From an uncultured Neglectibacter sp. (GTDB lineage: Bacteria; Bacillota; Clostridia; Oscillospirales; Acutalibacteraceae): DNA of 64,000 nucleotides. Made by a program: the position numbers and the translations under genes. The notes under the pieces were generated by a model, which saw nothing but the letters and a program-made list of their open reading frames with translations, searched no databases and was not told where the DNA came from. The DNA lies in NCBI GenBank assembly GCA_904419785.1, contig CAJFSY010000006.1:62001-126000 (forward strand), read 5' to 3'. Below are positions 37,493 through 62,310 of this stretch, piece after piece (the first letter of the stretch is position 1; each line of letters starts with the position of its first letter).

Positions 37493-37588
37493 ATGCAGAG
37501 AATACATAAAATTTATAATTCTTTTCATGATAAATGGGTACAAGCTATTTATCGGGAGACTATTGAAAAAGGAAAGAAGTCGAATTCT

Positions 37589-39007
37589 ATGAAACGAAAC
37601 TTGCGATTTTACTTTGCGCTGCTGTTTGCAAAAGGCACGGCGCGGGTGATGAAGCTGGTGGGAAGGAAGGGCACTTCCATGCCTGGAAGCTGGGCCATCA
37701 TTTTATGCCCCGATTTTTTGGGACGTATGCCCCGTCCTAAAACCATCATCGGCATCACCGGTACAAACGGTAAGACCACGGTTTCCAATTTGGTGGAGGA
37801 CGTGCTCACCCAATGCGGGTATGATTTCACCTGCAACAAGGCCGGCACCAACGTGGCTACCGGCGTGGCTTCCAGCCTCATCGCCAACTCCACGTTGTTC
37901 GGCAAGCCCAAAAAGGATCTGGCTGTTTTTGAATTGGATGAACGCAGTTCCCCCCGCATTCTGCCATTTCTCAAGCCCGATATCCTGTTGTGCACCAACT
38001 TGTTCCGGGATTCTTACAAACGCAACGCCCATGTGGAGTTCATTCACGATATTTTGAACACCTATATCCCCGACAGCACCCGGCTGATCTTGAATGCCGA
38101 CGATCTGCTGTGCGCCAGTTTAAAGCCGGAAAACCGCCGGGTCTTTTTCGGCATCGACCCGCTGCCCGGGGAAAAAGGCGAGCCTGCCAACATCGTGCAG
38201 GACGTGCGGGTATGCCCTCACTGTGGTACGCCCCTGGAATGGGAACTGCGCCGCTACCACCATATTGGCCGGGCGCGCTGCCCCCAGTGCGGGTTCTCTT
38301 CCCCTGAGCCCAAATACCATGTCACCGCTTTAGACCAGGAACACGGCCACATGACGGTGATGGGCCCTGAAGGTCCCCGGGACTTTTCCCTGCCCAACTC
38401 GAACCTTATCAACGTATACAACACCCTTTCCGCCATCTCCTTGCTGGCGGAGTTCGGGCTTTCCAAAGACCGTATCGGCCAAAGCCTGGAAAACTTGACT
38501 ATTGTGGAGAGCCGTTATTCAGAAGAGAACGTCAACGGAAGGGAACTGGTGCTGCATCTGGCTAAAGGGCAGAATCCCATCGCCTGTTCCCAGGCGTGCG
38601 CCAACGCCCGGAAATACCCCGGAAAGAAATCGGTGCTGCTGCTGCTGGACGACGCCCACGACAACGCCCATTCCGTGGAAAATACCGCCTGGCTCTATGA
38701 CACGGATTTCGAATTTTTAAATGATCCTGATATTTTGCAGGTCGCCACAGGGGGGCCCCGTCACTGGGACACCTATGTGCGGCTGCTCATGGCAGGCATC
38801 CCGGAAGAAAAGCTGGTGCATAAAGAGGACCCCTTAGAGGCTGCCGCCGCGCTGGACGTGGCTTCTTCCGATGCGGTGTTCGTGCTGTATGACTTATATT
38901 CCGTGGACTTGTCCCAACAGGTAAAGGCCCAGCTCCACCAACGGCTGGCCCAGTCCCCCGCCAAAGGGACTGAACCGGGAAAGGAGGAGGCCGCTGATGA
39001 AAATTGA
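37589..39007 (+). CDS. murT: Lipid II isoglutaminyl synthase ligase subunit MurT
   Basis: Mur-ligase-like ATPase that activates the D-Glu alpha-carboxylate of lipid II for amidation with ammonia from GatD. 472 residues. The P-loop is GITGTNGKTT (55-64). A four-cysteine zinc ribbon is inserted (C209, C212, C231, C234), as in known MurT. The C-terminal DUF1727 domain is present, but its usual DVSW-type motif, which supplies the Asp of the shared triad, reads ENTAW (364-368). ATG at 37589 with a GGAAAGAAG site; the longer frame from 37493 is not supported. It overlaps gatD by 11 nt. Confidence 0.92.
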   Translation: MKRNLRFYFALLFAKGTARVMKLVGRKGTSMPGSWAIILCPDFLGRMPRPKTIIGITGTNGKTTVSNLVEDVLTQCGYDFTCNKAGTNVATGVASSLIANSTLFGKPKKDLAVFELDERSSPRILPFLKPDILLCTNLFRDSYKRNAHVEFIHDILNTYIPDSTRLILNADDLLCASLKPENRRVFFGIDPLPGEKGEPANIVQDVRVCPHCGTPLEWELRRYHHIGRARCPQCGFSSPEPKYHVTALDQEHGHMTVMGPEGPRDFSLPNSNLINVYNTLSAISLLAEFGLSKDRIGQSLENLTIVESRYSEENVNGRELVLHLAKGQNPIACSQACANARKYPGKKSVLLLLDDAHDNAHSVENTAWLYDTDFEFLNDPDILQVATGGPRHWDTYVRLLMAGIPEEKLVHKEDPLEAAAALDVASSDAVFVLYDLYSVDLSQQVKAQLHQRLAQSPAKGTEPGKEEAADEN

Positions 39008-39695
39008 GATCTTATATCCTCAGTGCTGCAATCTGTTTGGGGATTTGAGCAACATCGACTATCTGCGGAAATGCCTGCCCCAAGCGGAATTTGTAGAGAC
39101 CTCTCTGACCGACGAGCCGTTGTTCGCCACCGAACCGGTAGACATGGTATATTTGGGGCCCATGACAGAGCGGTCCCAACGGATGGTGTTGGAACGCCTG
39201 CTACCTTACCGCAAACGGATGTGGGAGCTGATCGGCGGCGATACAGTGTTTCTGTTTACAGGCAACGCTCTGGAGCTGGCGGGGGAATATATTATCCAAG
39301 AAGACGGCAGCCGTTTGAACTGCCTGGAAATATTCCCTCTTTACGCAAAGCAAGATATGATGCACCGGCATAACAGCGTTTTCCTGGGAAATTTTGAGGG
39401 ACAACCTGTGATGGGTTTCAAGTCCCAATTTACCACAGCCTATCCTCTTTCTGAGAACATTGGGCTGTTCACCGTGGAAAAAGGTATGGGGCTTAACAAA
39501 AAATGCTCCTTTGAAGGCATCCGCTACCGGAACTTCTTCGGCACCTATCTGGTGGGGCCTTTGCTGCTTTTGAACCCGCCTTTCACCAAGTCTCTTTTAA
39601 AGCTTCTGGGCGCGGGGAACGCTCCCCTGGCTTTTGAGAAAGAGGTGCAGGCCGCCTATGAAAAGCGCCTGGATGATTTCCGCAAAAAAGTATAA
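38997..39695 (+). CDS. gatD: GatD-like class I amidotransferase, catalytic Cys and His missing
   Basis: Normally the glutaminase that feeds ammonia to MurT. 232 residues and clearly homologous: opening EILYPQCCNLFGDLSNIDYL, a strand/turn near 50-57, and GTYLVGPLLLLNP near the end. In Staphylococcus aureus GatD the nucleophile lies in TICGGYQFLG and the base in GTYLHGPILP. Here the first reads LFTGNALELAG (Thr88 at the Cys position; the Gln is lost too) and the second GTYLVGP (Val186 at the His position). It should therefore not hydrolyse glutamine. ATG with GGAGGAGG upstream, overlapping murT by 11 nt, so a stable complex is likely still made. Confidence 0.88.
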   Translation: MKIEILYPQCCNLFGDLSNIDYLRKCLPQAEFVETSLTDEPLFATEPVDMVYLGPMTERSQRMVLERLLPYRKRMWELIGGDTVFLFTGNALELAGEYIIQEDGSRLNCLEIFPLYAKQDMMHRHNSVFLGNFEGQPVMGFKSQFTTAYPLSENIGLFTVEKGMGLNKKCSFEGIRYRNFFGTYLVGPLLLLNPPFTKSLLKLLGAGNAPLAFEKEVQAAYEKRLDDFRKKV

Positions 39696-61860: not shown

Positions 61861-62310
61861 GAGTAAAACCTCCAAAATGTATGTTCGACAAATTTAATGC
61901 ATAAATATTCATTTTATGATTTCAGCGCCTTTTCGGTGGAATTTTCCCGCTATTTTGGGGGATTTTGTGAAAACACGCTGGAAAACCGCAGCTTTTGACG
62001 CTAGTATACCACAAAATCGGGGAAAAGCATAGTGTTTTCTTCCACCATTCCCGTTCTTTGCCAAGGGGTTTCCTCACAGTGAAATGTATGTTAAATGCCT
62101 GTTGACAAATTGTGAGAAAGAAATCTTCCCCAAAGCTATTGACACAATATCATGCGGATAAACTCTAGGTTTTTCCCTTATATTGGGTCAAGTGGCAAAA
62201 GCGAAAAAAGGCGTTTTTTGTTCTATTTCAGAACATTTGCGGGGTTTGTTTACATAAAAGCAAGAGGTTGTGAAAATGGGGGAAAGTTGAAAACCGCATA
62301 GGACAAGGGG

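Follow-up and report, generated by a model that had tools for sequence, protein, structure and literature searches.

What can a MurT-GatD pair do once its GatD subunit has lost the residues with which glutamine is hydrolysed? The question is posed by two genes in a stretch of 64,000 nucleotides from an uncultured Neglectibacter sp. (positions 62,001 to 126,000 of contig CAJFSY010000006.1, assembly GCA_904419785.1), hereafter the window. A murT-like ligase gene (37493..39007, + strand, 504 amino acids; the start is possibly the Met codon at 37589) is followed by a gatD-like gene (38997..39695, + strand, 232 amino acids), whose 5' end overlaps the murT-like stop at 39007. In Staphylococcus aureus and Streptococcus pneumoniae, amidation of lipid II D-Glu by MurT/GatD is essential (PMC3266927, PMC6085368). 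An earlier note on this DNA, which gave the coordinates and reading frame of the gatD-like gene correctly, held that its product lacks the catalytic residues and that the pair might use free ammonia, borrow another glutaminase or attach a different amine. We find that loss of the glutaminase site is the conserved state of a clade, not something peculiar to this locus. A different amine is the option that our data favour, as far as we can infer: we give about an even chance to the reading that the pair is a lipid II ligase using an amine, probably an amino acid, other than glutamine-derived ammonia. Free ammonia is the main rival.

The missing site was located with HMMER alignments of the window protein to S. 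aureus and streptococcal GatD, which have no gaps across it. Because ICGGYQ aligns gaplessly with T88-G89-N90-A91-L92-E93 (39258..39275, + strand), the nucleophile position is Gly89, one residue past the Thr88 to which the earlier note had assigned it, but the Cys is absent as claimed. The same alignment places Asn-Ala at the two Gly and Glu93 at the conserved Gln after the nucleophile, and alignment to S. aureus GatD places Val186 (39552..39554, + strand) at the catalytic His of GTYLHGP; both the lost Gln and the lost His had been recognized. In the MurT-like protein, RDTSW aligns with ENTAW (38678..38692, + strand), which stands in place of RDxSW; the triad residue that MurT contributes, Asp in that motif, is Asn here. 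This substitution had also been reported for the window, but across the clade the loss is mainly a trait of one inactive class, class A below. Arg124 (39366..39368, + strand), which corresponds to the glutamine-capturing Arg128/Arg142 of characterized GatDs, is kept.

Is the absence of the site a peculiarity of one locus? We counted 202 GatDs whose neighbouring MurT exceeds 330 residues, with duplicates collapsed and with non-MurT loci and L122 excluded. Cys and His are both present in 91 and both absent in 111, and no sequence is mixed, a partition far beyond chance; mixed cases are likewise missing among 27 extra GatDs with short MurTs or from duplicates. Loss of both residues as a conserved clade state, which the earlier note had proposed looking for, is therefore what the homologues present, with neither residue in any of the 111, and a sequencing error or local frameshift is ruled out by the number of sequences that share the inactive state. 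The inactive GatDs have Gly (109) or Ser (2) in place of the Cys and mostly Glu (92/111) or Asp (11/111) in place of the Gln, and a replacement motif, TGNAxE, is conserved among them. By the residue after RD in the MurT loop, the inactive pairs divide into class A (n=48, RDSxxRNAH in most), to which the window pair belongs, and class B (n=63, RDQxTRNGH in most). In a tree of 105 MurTs, the active, A and B sequences each lie on one side of a branch. In a tree of 182 MurTs, built after removal of 22 of 30 near-alike Actinomycetes sequences and with two sequences lacking a GatD left unlabelled, a single branch parts inactive from active (support 98 by a quick method). The placement of four long sequences (L311, L315, L292 and L158) in the MurT tree is uncertain.

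Some members depart from these patterns. The loci L290, L295, L312 and L229 form a third, more divergent inactive subgroup, with GxGKxxN, TGNA/TGSA or ISGNA, and TW/SW.GP in GatD and with RDQ..RNGN and KD.[ST]W in MurT. Inactive GatDs of family f5 (L087, L089, L094, L097, L137 and L138) are ~30 residues shorter at the C-terminus. The MurT motifs of L311 (G632) are degenerate (GSVGKS, LEADGRIS and no RNxH loop), and this may be a decaying or refunctioned copy. L186, from an Actinomycetes genome, combines an active GatD with a MurT in which DER and DRN, isolated traits of the inactive class, were acquired separately.

Both genes of the inactive pairs are under purifying selection. By the Nei-Gojobori method, the ratio of nonsynonymous to synonymous substitution rates (dN/dS) lies between 0.04 and 0.52 in 12 of 13 inactive pairs from related species and between 0.08 and 0.19 in three active pairs; several of the dS values exceed 1 and are rough, and in the 13th inactive pair (window versus L144), dS is saturated. 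The highest values occur in two class A pairs (0.31-0.52) and in gatD of one class B pair (0.31), and both genes remain below 1 wherever the ratio was computed.

The ligase side of these pairs is kept and the donor side is changed. With sites numbered as in S. pneumoniae MurT/GatD after PMC6085368, the P-loop Lys, Glu110 and Asp112 are each present in 111/111 inactive MurTs, Glu113, the acceptor-binding Asn85, Asp136 and Lys321 each in 110/111, Arg140 in 107/111, and the four zinc-ribbon Cys in 108-111 of 111. Inactive and active MurTs share the acceptor Asn, the DE pair and, close to the N-terminus, a Pro-Gly, and an Arg after the DE pair marks 98/111 inactive and 1/91 active sequences. Inactive GatDs are changed at the Cys, the His, the oxyanion glycines and the Gln, and the MurT loop changes together with the GatD site, from DRYGE in active to xRN[AG]H in inactive pairs: Asp139 is found in 91/91 active versus 1/111 inactive MurTs, and Glu143 in 91/91 versus 0/111 (His in 99). 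The glutamine-capturing Arg of GatD is present in 89/91 active and 105/111 inactive sequences. When sites with at least 90% conservation were compared (105 MurTs, 114 GatDs), the columns conserved on both sides and different between them numbered one in MurT (Glu143 to His) and two in GatD. Asp355 stays Asp in 6/48 class A sequences, and the position remains acidic in class B (Glu in 45 and Asp in 17 of 63); the acidic gate residue Asp361 is mostly kept in the inactive class. At the MurT Trp360/GatD Gly34 contact, Trp is paired with Gly or Ala in 58/62 class B sequences, and class A mostly has Tyr.

Loop 135-143 of S. pneumoniae MurT lies at the GatD interface and is a possible ammonia channel (PMC6085368). 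Because Asp136 and Arg140 matter for activity in that enzyme and Asp139 and Glu143 matter little (PMC6085368), the residues kept in the inactive class are the ones important in S. pneumoniae. Two substitutions made in S. aureus laboratory mutants, GatD C94G and MurT D349N, occur naturally in the window pair. In vitro, GatD C94G and C94S abolish the reaction, and MurT D349N severely reduces it (text) or abolishes it (figure legend) (PMC6113224). GatD R128A, C94A and H189A have no glutaminase activity (PMC5871853), and S. pneumoniae MurT D355A is merely reduced in activity (PMC6085368). Unlike the laboratory mutants, the window pair has also lost the His, its loop is rewritten, and its state is that of a whole clade.

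MurC to MurF and the pseudomurein ligases join an amine to a peptide carboxylate in an ATP-dependent reaction. They have a loop His that is described as absent from MurT (PMC6085368); inactive-class MurTs have gained a loop His, at another place in the sequence. Unlike those ligases, MurTs of either type lack an N-terminal UDP-binding domain and have a GatD or GatD-like partner.

The other features of the window pair are those of the MurT/GatD family. The MurT-like protein has the MurT_C domain, an intact P-loop GTNGKT (37760..37777), the acidic pair for acceptor and Mg in D-E-R (37937..37945), with the Arg typical of the inactive class, and an intact four-cysteine zinc ribbon insertion (38213..38290; all + strand). 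Its loop RDSYKRNAH (38006..38032, + strand) corresponds to loop 135-143, with His180 for Glu143 and Lys176 for Asp139 in the numbering of the window MurT protein (P0002). This protein scores 83 bits with Pfam MurT_C (cut-off 25) and 33.4 bits with Mur_ligase_M (cut-off 24), and it falls below the NCBIfam MurT equivalog cut-off (184.6 and 193.4 bits versus 800). The GatD-like protein scores 60.4 bits with NCBIfam GatD (cut-off 400), and no Pfam model matched it at E<=1. The nearest PDB relatives by sequence are solved MurT and solved GatD, respectively, and GatD and MurT are also the top Foldseek matches of AlphaFold2 models whose mean predicted local distance difference test scores are 96.7 (GatD-like) and 91.6 (MurT-like); the GatD fold is thus predicted to be intact. 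Adjacent genes, MurT domains, zinc ribbon, ATP and acceptor residues, predicted GatD fold and glutamine-capturing Arg liken the pair to the MurT/GatD lipid II isoglutaminyl synthase of S. aureus and S. pneumoniae, from which it differs in its missing Cys and His, changed oxyanion Gly-Gly-Gly, Glu for Gln, Asn for the triad Asp, and rewritten MurT loop.

The inactive state is spread over at least two orders. Matches occur in 38 of the 120 genomes of the window's family, and the 30 loci read there comprise 4 with the canonical site and 26 without it, the window included. The window's order has 83 matches among 297 genomes, of which 81 were read (25 active and 56 inactive, the latter being 18 class A and 38 class B or other); weak matches in ~505-amino-acid frames of G679 and G740 were taken as other amidotransferases and lie outside the 81. 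A cut by score only was rejected for this order because G592 (158 bits with the A1 profile) and others in the 'active' range are inactive on sequence, and therefore all remaining pair matches there were read before counting. A second order, reached through a metagenome-assembled genome (MAG) labelled uncultured Erysipelotrichaceae (L154), has matches at E<=1e-20 in 76 of 148 genomes. Of these, 23 are inactive on sequence and the other 53 active-like, 7 read as active and 46 so called by score. With the A2 profile, the score-called active genomes have 261-326 bits, the seven read as active 327-358, and the best copy per inactive genome at least 423; two second copies, which scored 368 and 374 bits, proved inactive when read.

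A sample taken across the phylum gave matches in 145 of 398 genomes, and among the best 30 loci only the window and L034 are inactive; four further loci from this sample are inactive (L150 and L316, labelled as the same class and not the same order) or active (L149 and L317). Among the matches listed, at least 10 named MurT loci, all from MAGs, include 7 inactive and 3 active, and the inactive named carriers are MAGs of uncultured Clostridia, Oscillospiraceae and Erysipelotrichaceae. Type B Actinobacteria were considered as carriers of the inactive pair and rejected: 158 of 296 Actinomycetes genomes match at E<=1e-20, the best 30 of the 158 are of the active MurT type, and Cys and His are present in all 29 of those loci with a GatD in the stretch read. 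A diamine idea drawn from Selenomonas and Veillonella was also dropped, since the one Selenomonadaceae genome tested had only weak Mur ligase matches, none of them MurT-like.

Active and inactive pairs are mutually exclusive in the genomes surveyed. No genome of the window's order has both (expected 4.7, hypergeometric P(0) 0.004), nor does any in the second order (expected 8.2, P(0) 1.2e-5), by statistics that ignore kinship. In four genomes of the second order with another copy beside the inactive one, that copy was read and is also inactive. Five genomes (G084, G107, G793, G1206 and G1241) carry pairs of both class A and class B.

Genes adjoining the pairs hint at what the inactive class might do. 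In a first neighbour pass, the largest cluster besides murT/gatD had 7 members. Clusters of ATP-grasp and aminotransferase genes emerged when a different gene picker was used in a second pass, and in this wider search of 73 loci an ATP-grasp and a class III aminotransferase are the two families that recur beside class A pairs. The ATP-grasp proteins belong to Pfam ATPgrasp_ST (152.7-194.6 bits in five members scanned, cut-off 31.4). The aminotransferase resembles EctB, the diaminobutyrate transaminase, with NCBIfam EctB (TIGR02407) scores of 538.6, 546 and 555.9 bits, one of the three above the cut-off of 552.2. Unlike the EctB system, no ectA or ectC was recognized by eye among the ectB neighbours, which are only partly annotated. 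A third kind of neighbour is a putative flippase: all six proteins scanned exceed the Pfam Polysacc_synt cut-off, five exceed that of MurJ, and the three tried in NCBIfam fall below the SpoVB and MurJ cut-offs, so that we call them MurJ/SpoVB-like on modest family scores.

Of 91 loci with a pair of either kind, 11 adjoin at least one of these three genes, and ten of the 11 are class A. The gene order is murT-gatD-ectB at L112, where ectB lies within ~20 base pairs (bp) of gatD, and ectB-murT-gatD at L120 and L152, where ectB lies ~70 and ~35 bp, respectively, before the murT match. L119 reads murT-gatD-ATPgrasp-x-ectB, L135 and L252 murT-gatD-ATPgrasp, L240 murT-gatD-flippase-ATPgrasp, and L241 flippase-ATPgrasp-murT-gatD; at L115 and L242 a divergent ATPgrasp gene lies beside the pair. 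The class B locus is L243, with flippase-murT-gatD. Placed on the tree, nine linked sequences require 7 changes, at least 5 of them forced by well-supported branches (shuffles gave a mean of 8.7 changes, and 17/500 were as low), so the linked sequences are scattered across the tree, if slightly clustered, and their linkage does not go back to a single inheritance. An AsnB-like gene with a glutaminase domain adjoins two inactive pairs (L119:7352-9220 and L150:4554-6401, the latter assigned by similarity to L119). The class B loci L091, L106, L124, L126 and L127 share neighbours that by eye resemble recD2, comF and mreB.

The same association is seen at the level of whole genomes. We searched for the ATP-grasp at E<=1e-40 with a profile (A5) made from ten linked genes (six neighbours of inactive pairs and four of ectB), some of which come from genomes that were counted, and for EctB at E<=1e-120. 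In the window's order, the ATP-grasp is present in 9/18 genomes with class A, 22/38 with class B or other, 1/25 with active pairs and 35/216 without a pair; by Fisher tests, which treat genomes as independent in violation of their kinship, inactive (31/56) versus active gives p=5e-6 and inactive versus all others p=1.5e-9. EctB is present in 7/18, 2/38, 0/25 and 3/216 genomes of these respective groups, and class A versus all others (5/279) gives p=6e-7 by the same test. All 12 EctB genomes hold the ATP-grasp, a class A pair or both, as do 76/297 genomes overall (P=4e-8): 5 have class A without an ATP-grasp match, 3 the ATP-grasp without a pair, 2 both, and 2 the ATP-grasp with class B. In G020, G024, G592 and G603 the ATP-grasp gene directly adjoins ectB. 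Because the Fisher tests ignore kinship, repetition in the second order is better support. There, in a sample of 66 of the 148 genomes (23 inactive, the 23 active-like genomes with the highest scores, and 20 that gave no match at E<=1e-20), the ATP-grasp is found in 18/23 inactive, 0/23 active-like and 3/20 unmatched genomes. EctB was found in 0/66; the controls of this search gave no match either, although the same model matched 12 genomes of the window's order.

The ATP-grasp is matched once in the window's genome, at G000:C1:160722-161726 (L328), on a contig other than that of murT-gatD. This ATPgrasp_ST gene adjoins an FtsW/RodA gene and a gene of the metallo-beta-lactamase fold. At L333 (G656), in the window's genus, ATPgrasp_ST also lies beside an FtsW/RodA gene, and the other neighbour clusters with the metallo-beta-lactamase-fold gene of L328. 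At L336 (G763), ATPgrasp_ST lies beside an alanine racemase gene in a genome that has EctB and no MurT-GatD pair.

How might such a pair work? The main rival to a different amine is that D-isoglutamine is still made in lipid II from free cytoplasmic ammonia, with GatD as a structural subunit. We consider this somewhat unlikely, although there is precedent: with S. aureus GatD C94G, glutamine-dependent activity is gone, ammonia-dependent amidation at pH 8.5 is unaffected, and GatD is still needed (PMC3266927). The unchanged acceptor and ATP residues, and mutual exclusion as of alternatives for one job, are also as this account would have them. However, ammonia use was not seen at pH 7.5 in the S. 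aureus assays described there (PMC3266927), an ammonia enzyme has no obvious need of a loop rewritten at Asp139, Tyr141 and Glu143, and the linkage to EctB and an ATP-grasp ligase would be left unexplained. Supply of ammonia in trans by another glutaminase is quite improbable. The AsnB-like gene could be such a source, as could the one GATase_3 match in the window's genome, but the former adjoins the pair at two loci only, and the retained GatD-like subunit would block the docking face if it sits as GatD does in the solved complexes.

The pair might instead have another carboxylate, or another substrate altogether, as its target, whether as ligase or as regulator, with the GatD-like protein sensing glutamine or a different amino acid. 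Retention of the glutamine-capturing Arg would suit a sensor, and the coexistence of classes A and B in five genomes implies that one of the two, or both, may have a separate role; we nevertheless judge this unlikely, given the Pro-Gly, acceptor Asn and DE pair held in common with active MurTs and the MurJ/SpoVB-like neighbours of some pairs. That the pair is a decaying remnant is barely credible. Ratios of up to 0.38-0.52 in some class A genes and the degenerate L311 could be read in this way, but dN/dS below 1 in both genes, open frames, the conserved TGNAxE motif, the retained ligase residues and the spread over orders rule decay out, except possibly for L311, and bear out the earlier note, which had argued against it.

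We return to a lipid II ligase with an amine of another origin. Because the GatD-like subunit cannot make ammonia from glutamine, MurT must obtain its amine in another way, and direct use of an amino acid is favoured because the acceptor side is unchanged, the inter-subunit loop is rewritten and the pair travels with EctB and the ATP-grasp, members of families that synthesize and ligate amino acids, respectively. In the complex and order of steps that we infer, an ATP-dependent ligase of the MurT type would be paired with a GatD-like subunit incapable of glutamine hydrolysis. The latter, presumed to be still bound, would hold the interface and would probably gate the amine or help to bind it, and the attacking amine, most likely an amino acid or diamine, would be taken up directly. 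Where ectB is linked, L-2,4-diaminobutyrate is the best candidate; elsewhere, possibly in the window organism too, another amine would serve. The linked ATP-grasp would serve this wall modification as its second ligase, and in a few operons the MurJ/SpoVB-like protein may move the product.

Several observations weigh against this reading. Diaminobutyrate was rejected as the general amine, as EctB was found neither in the window's genome nor in 11/18 class A genomes nor in any of the 66 of the second order. In 80/91 loci no such neighbour lies in the stretch read, the linked sequences cluster somewhat on the tree, and kinship among genomes bears on the tests of co-occurrence. The ATP-grasp, being present in pair-less genomes of both orders, has a life of its own. 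Arg124 is kept though glutamine is no longer hydrolysed, which also fits a glutamine sensor. As for origin, we tentatively suggest, as a possibility and not an expectation, that the system evolved from an amidating MurT/GatD whose glutaminase was silenced and became an amine-binding or gating subunit, working with the ATP-grasp, EctB and a MurJ/SpoVB-like flippase.

Cadaverine occurs on the D-Glu alpha-carboxylate, and the same carboxylate is used in type B cross-links with diaminobutyrate. To our knowledge, the ligase responsible for adding amino acids at this position in type B walls is not widely known. Glycine and D-serine are also known there (review, PMC11555704). Our searches, which covered a collection of open-access papers, turned up no report of the inactive clade or of its predicted peptidoglycan modification. 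A large natural clade that keeps both subunits with the glutaminase silenced suggests that the MurT/GatD scaffold is usable without glutamine. It predicts a peptidoglycan modification in uncultured Clostridia, and provides candidate gene sets for the ligation of amino acids to the D-Glu alpha-carboxylate.

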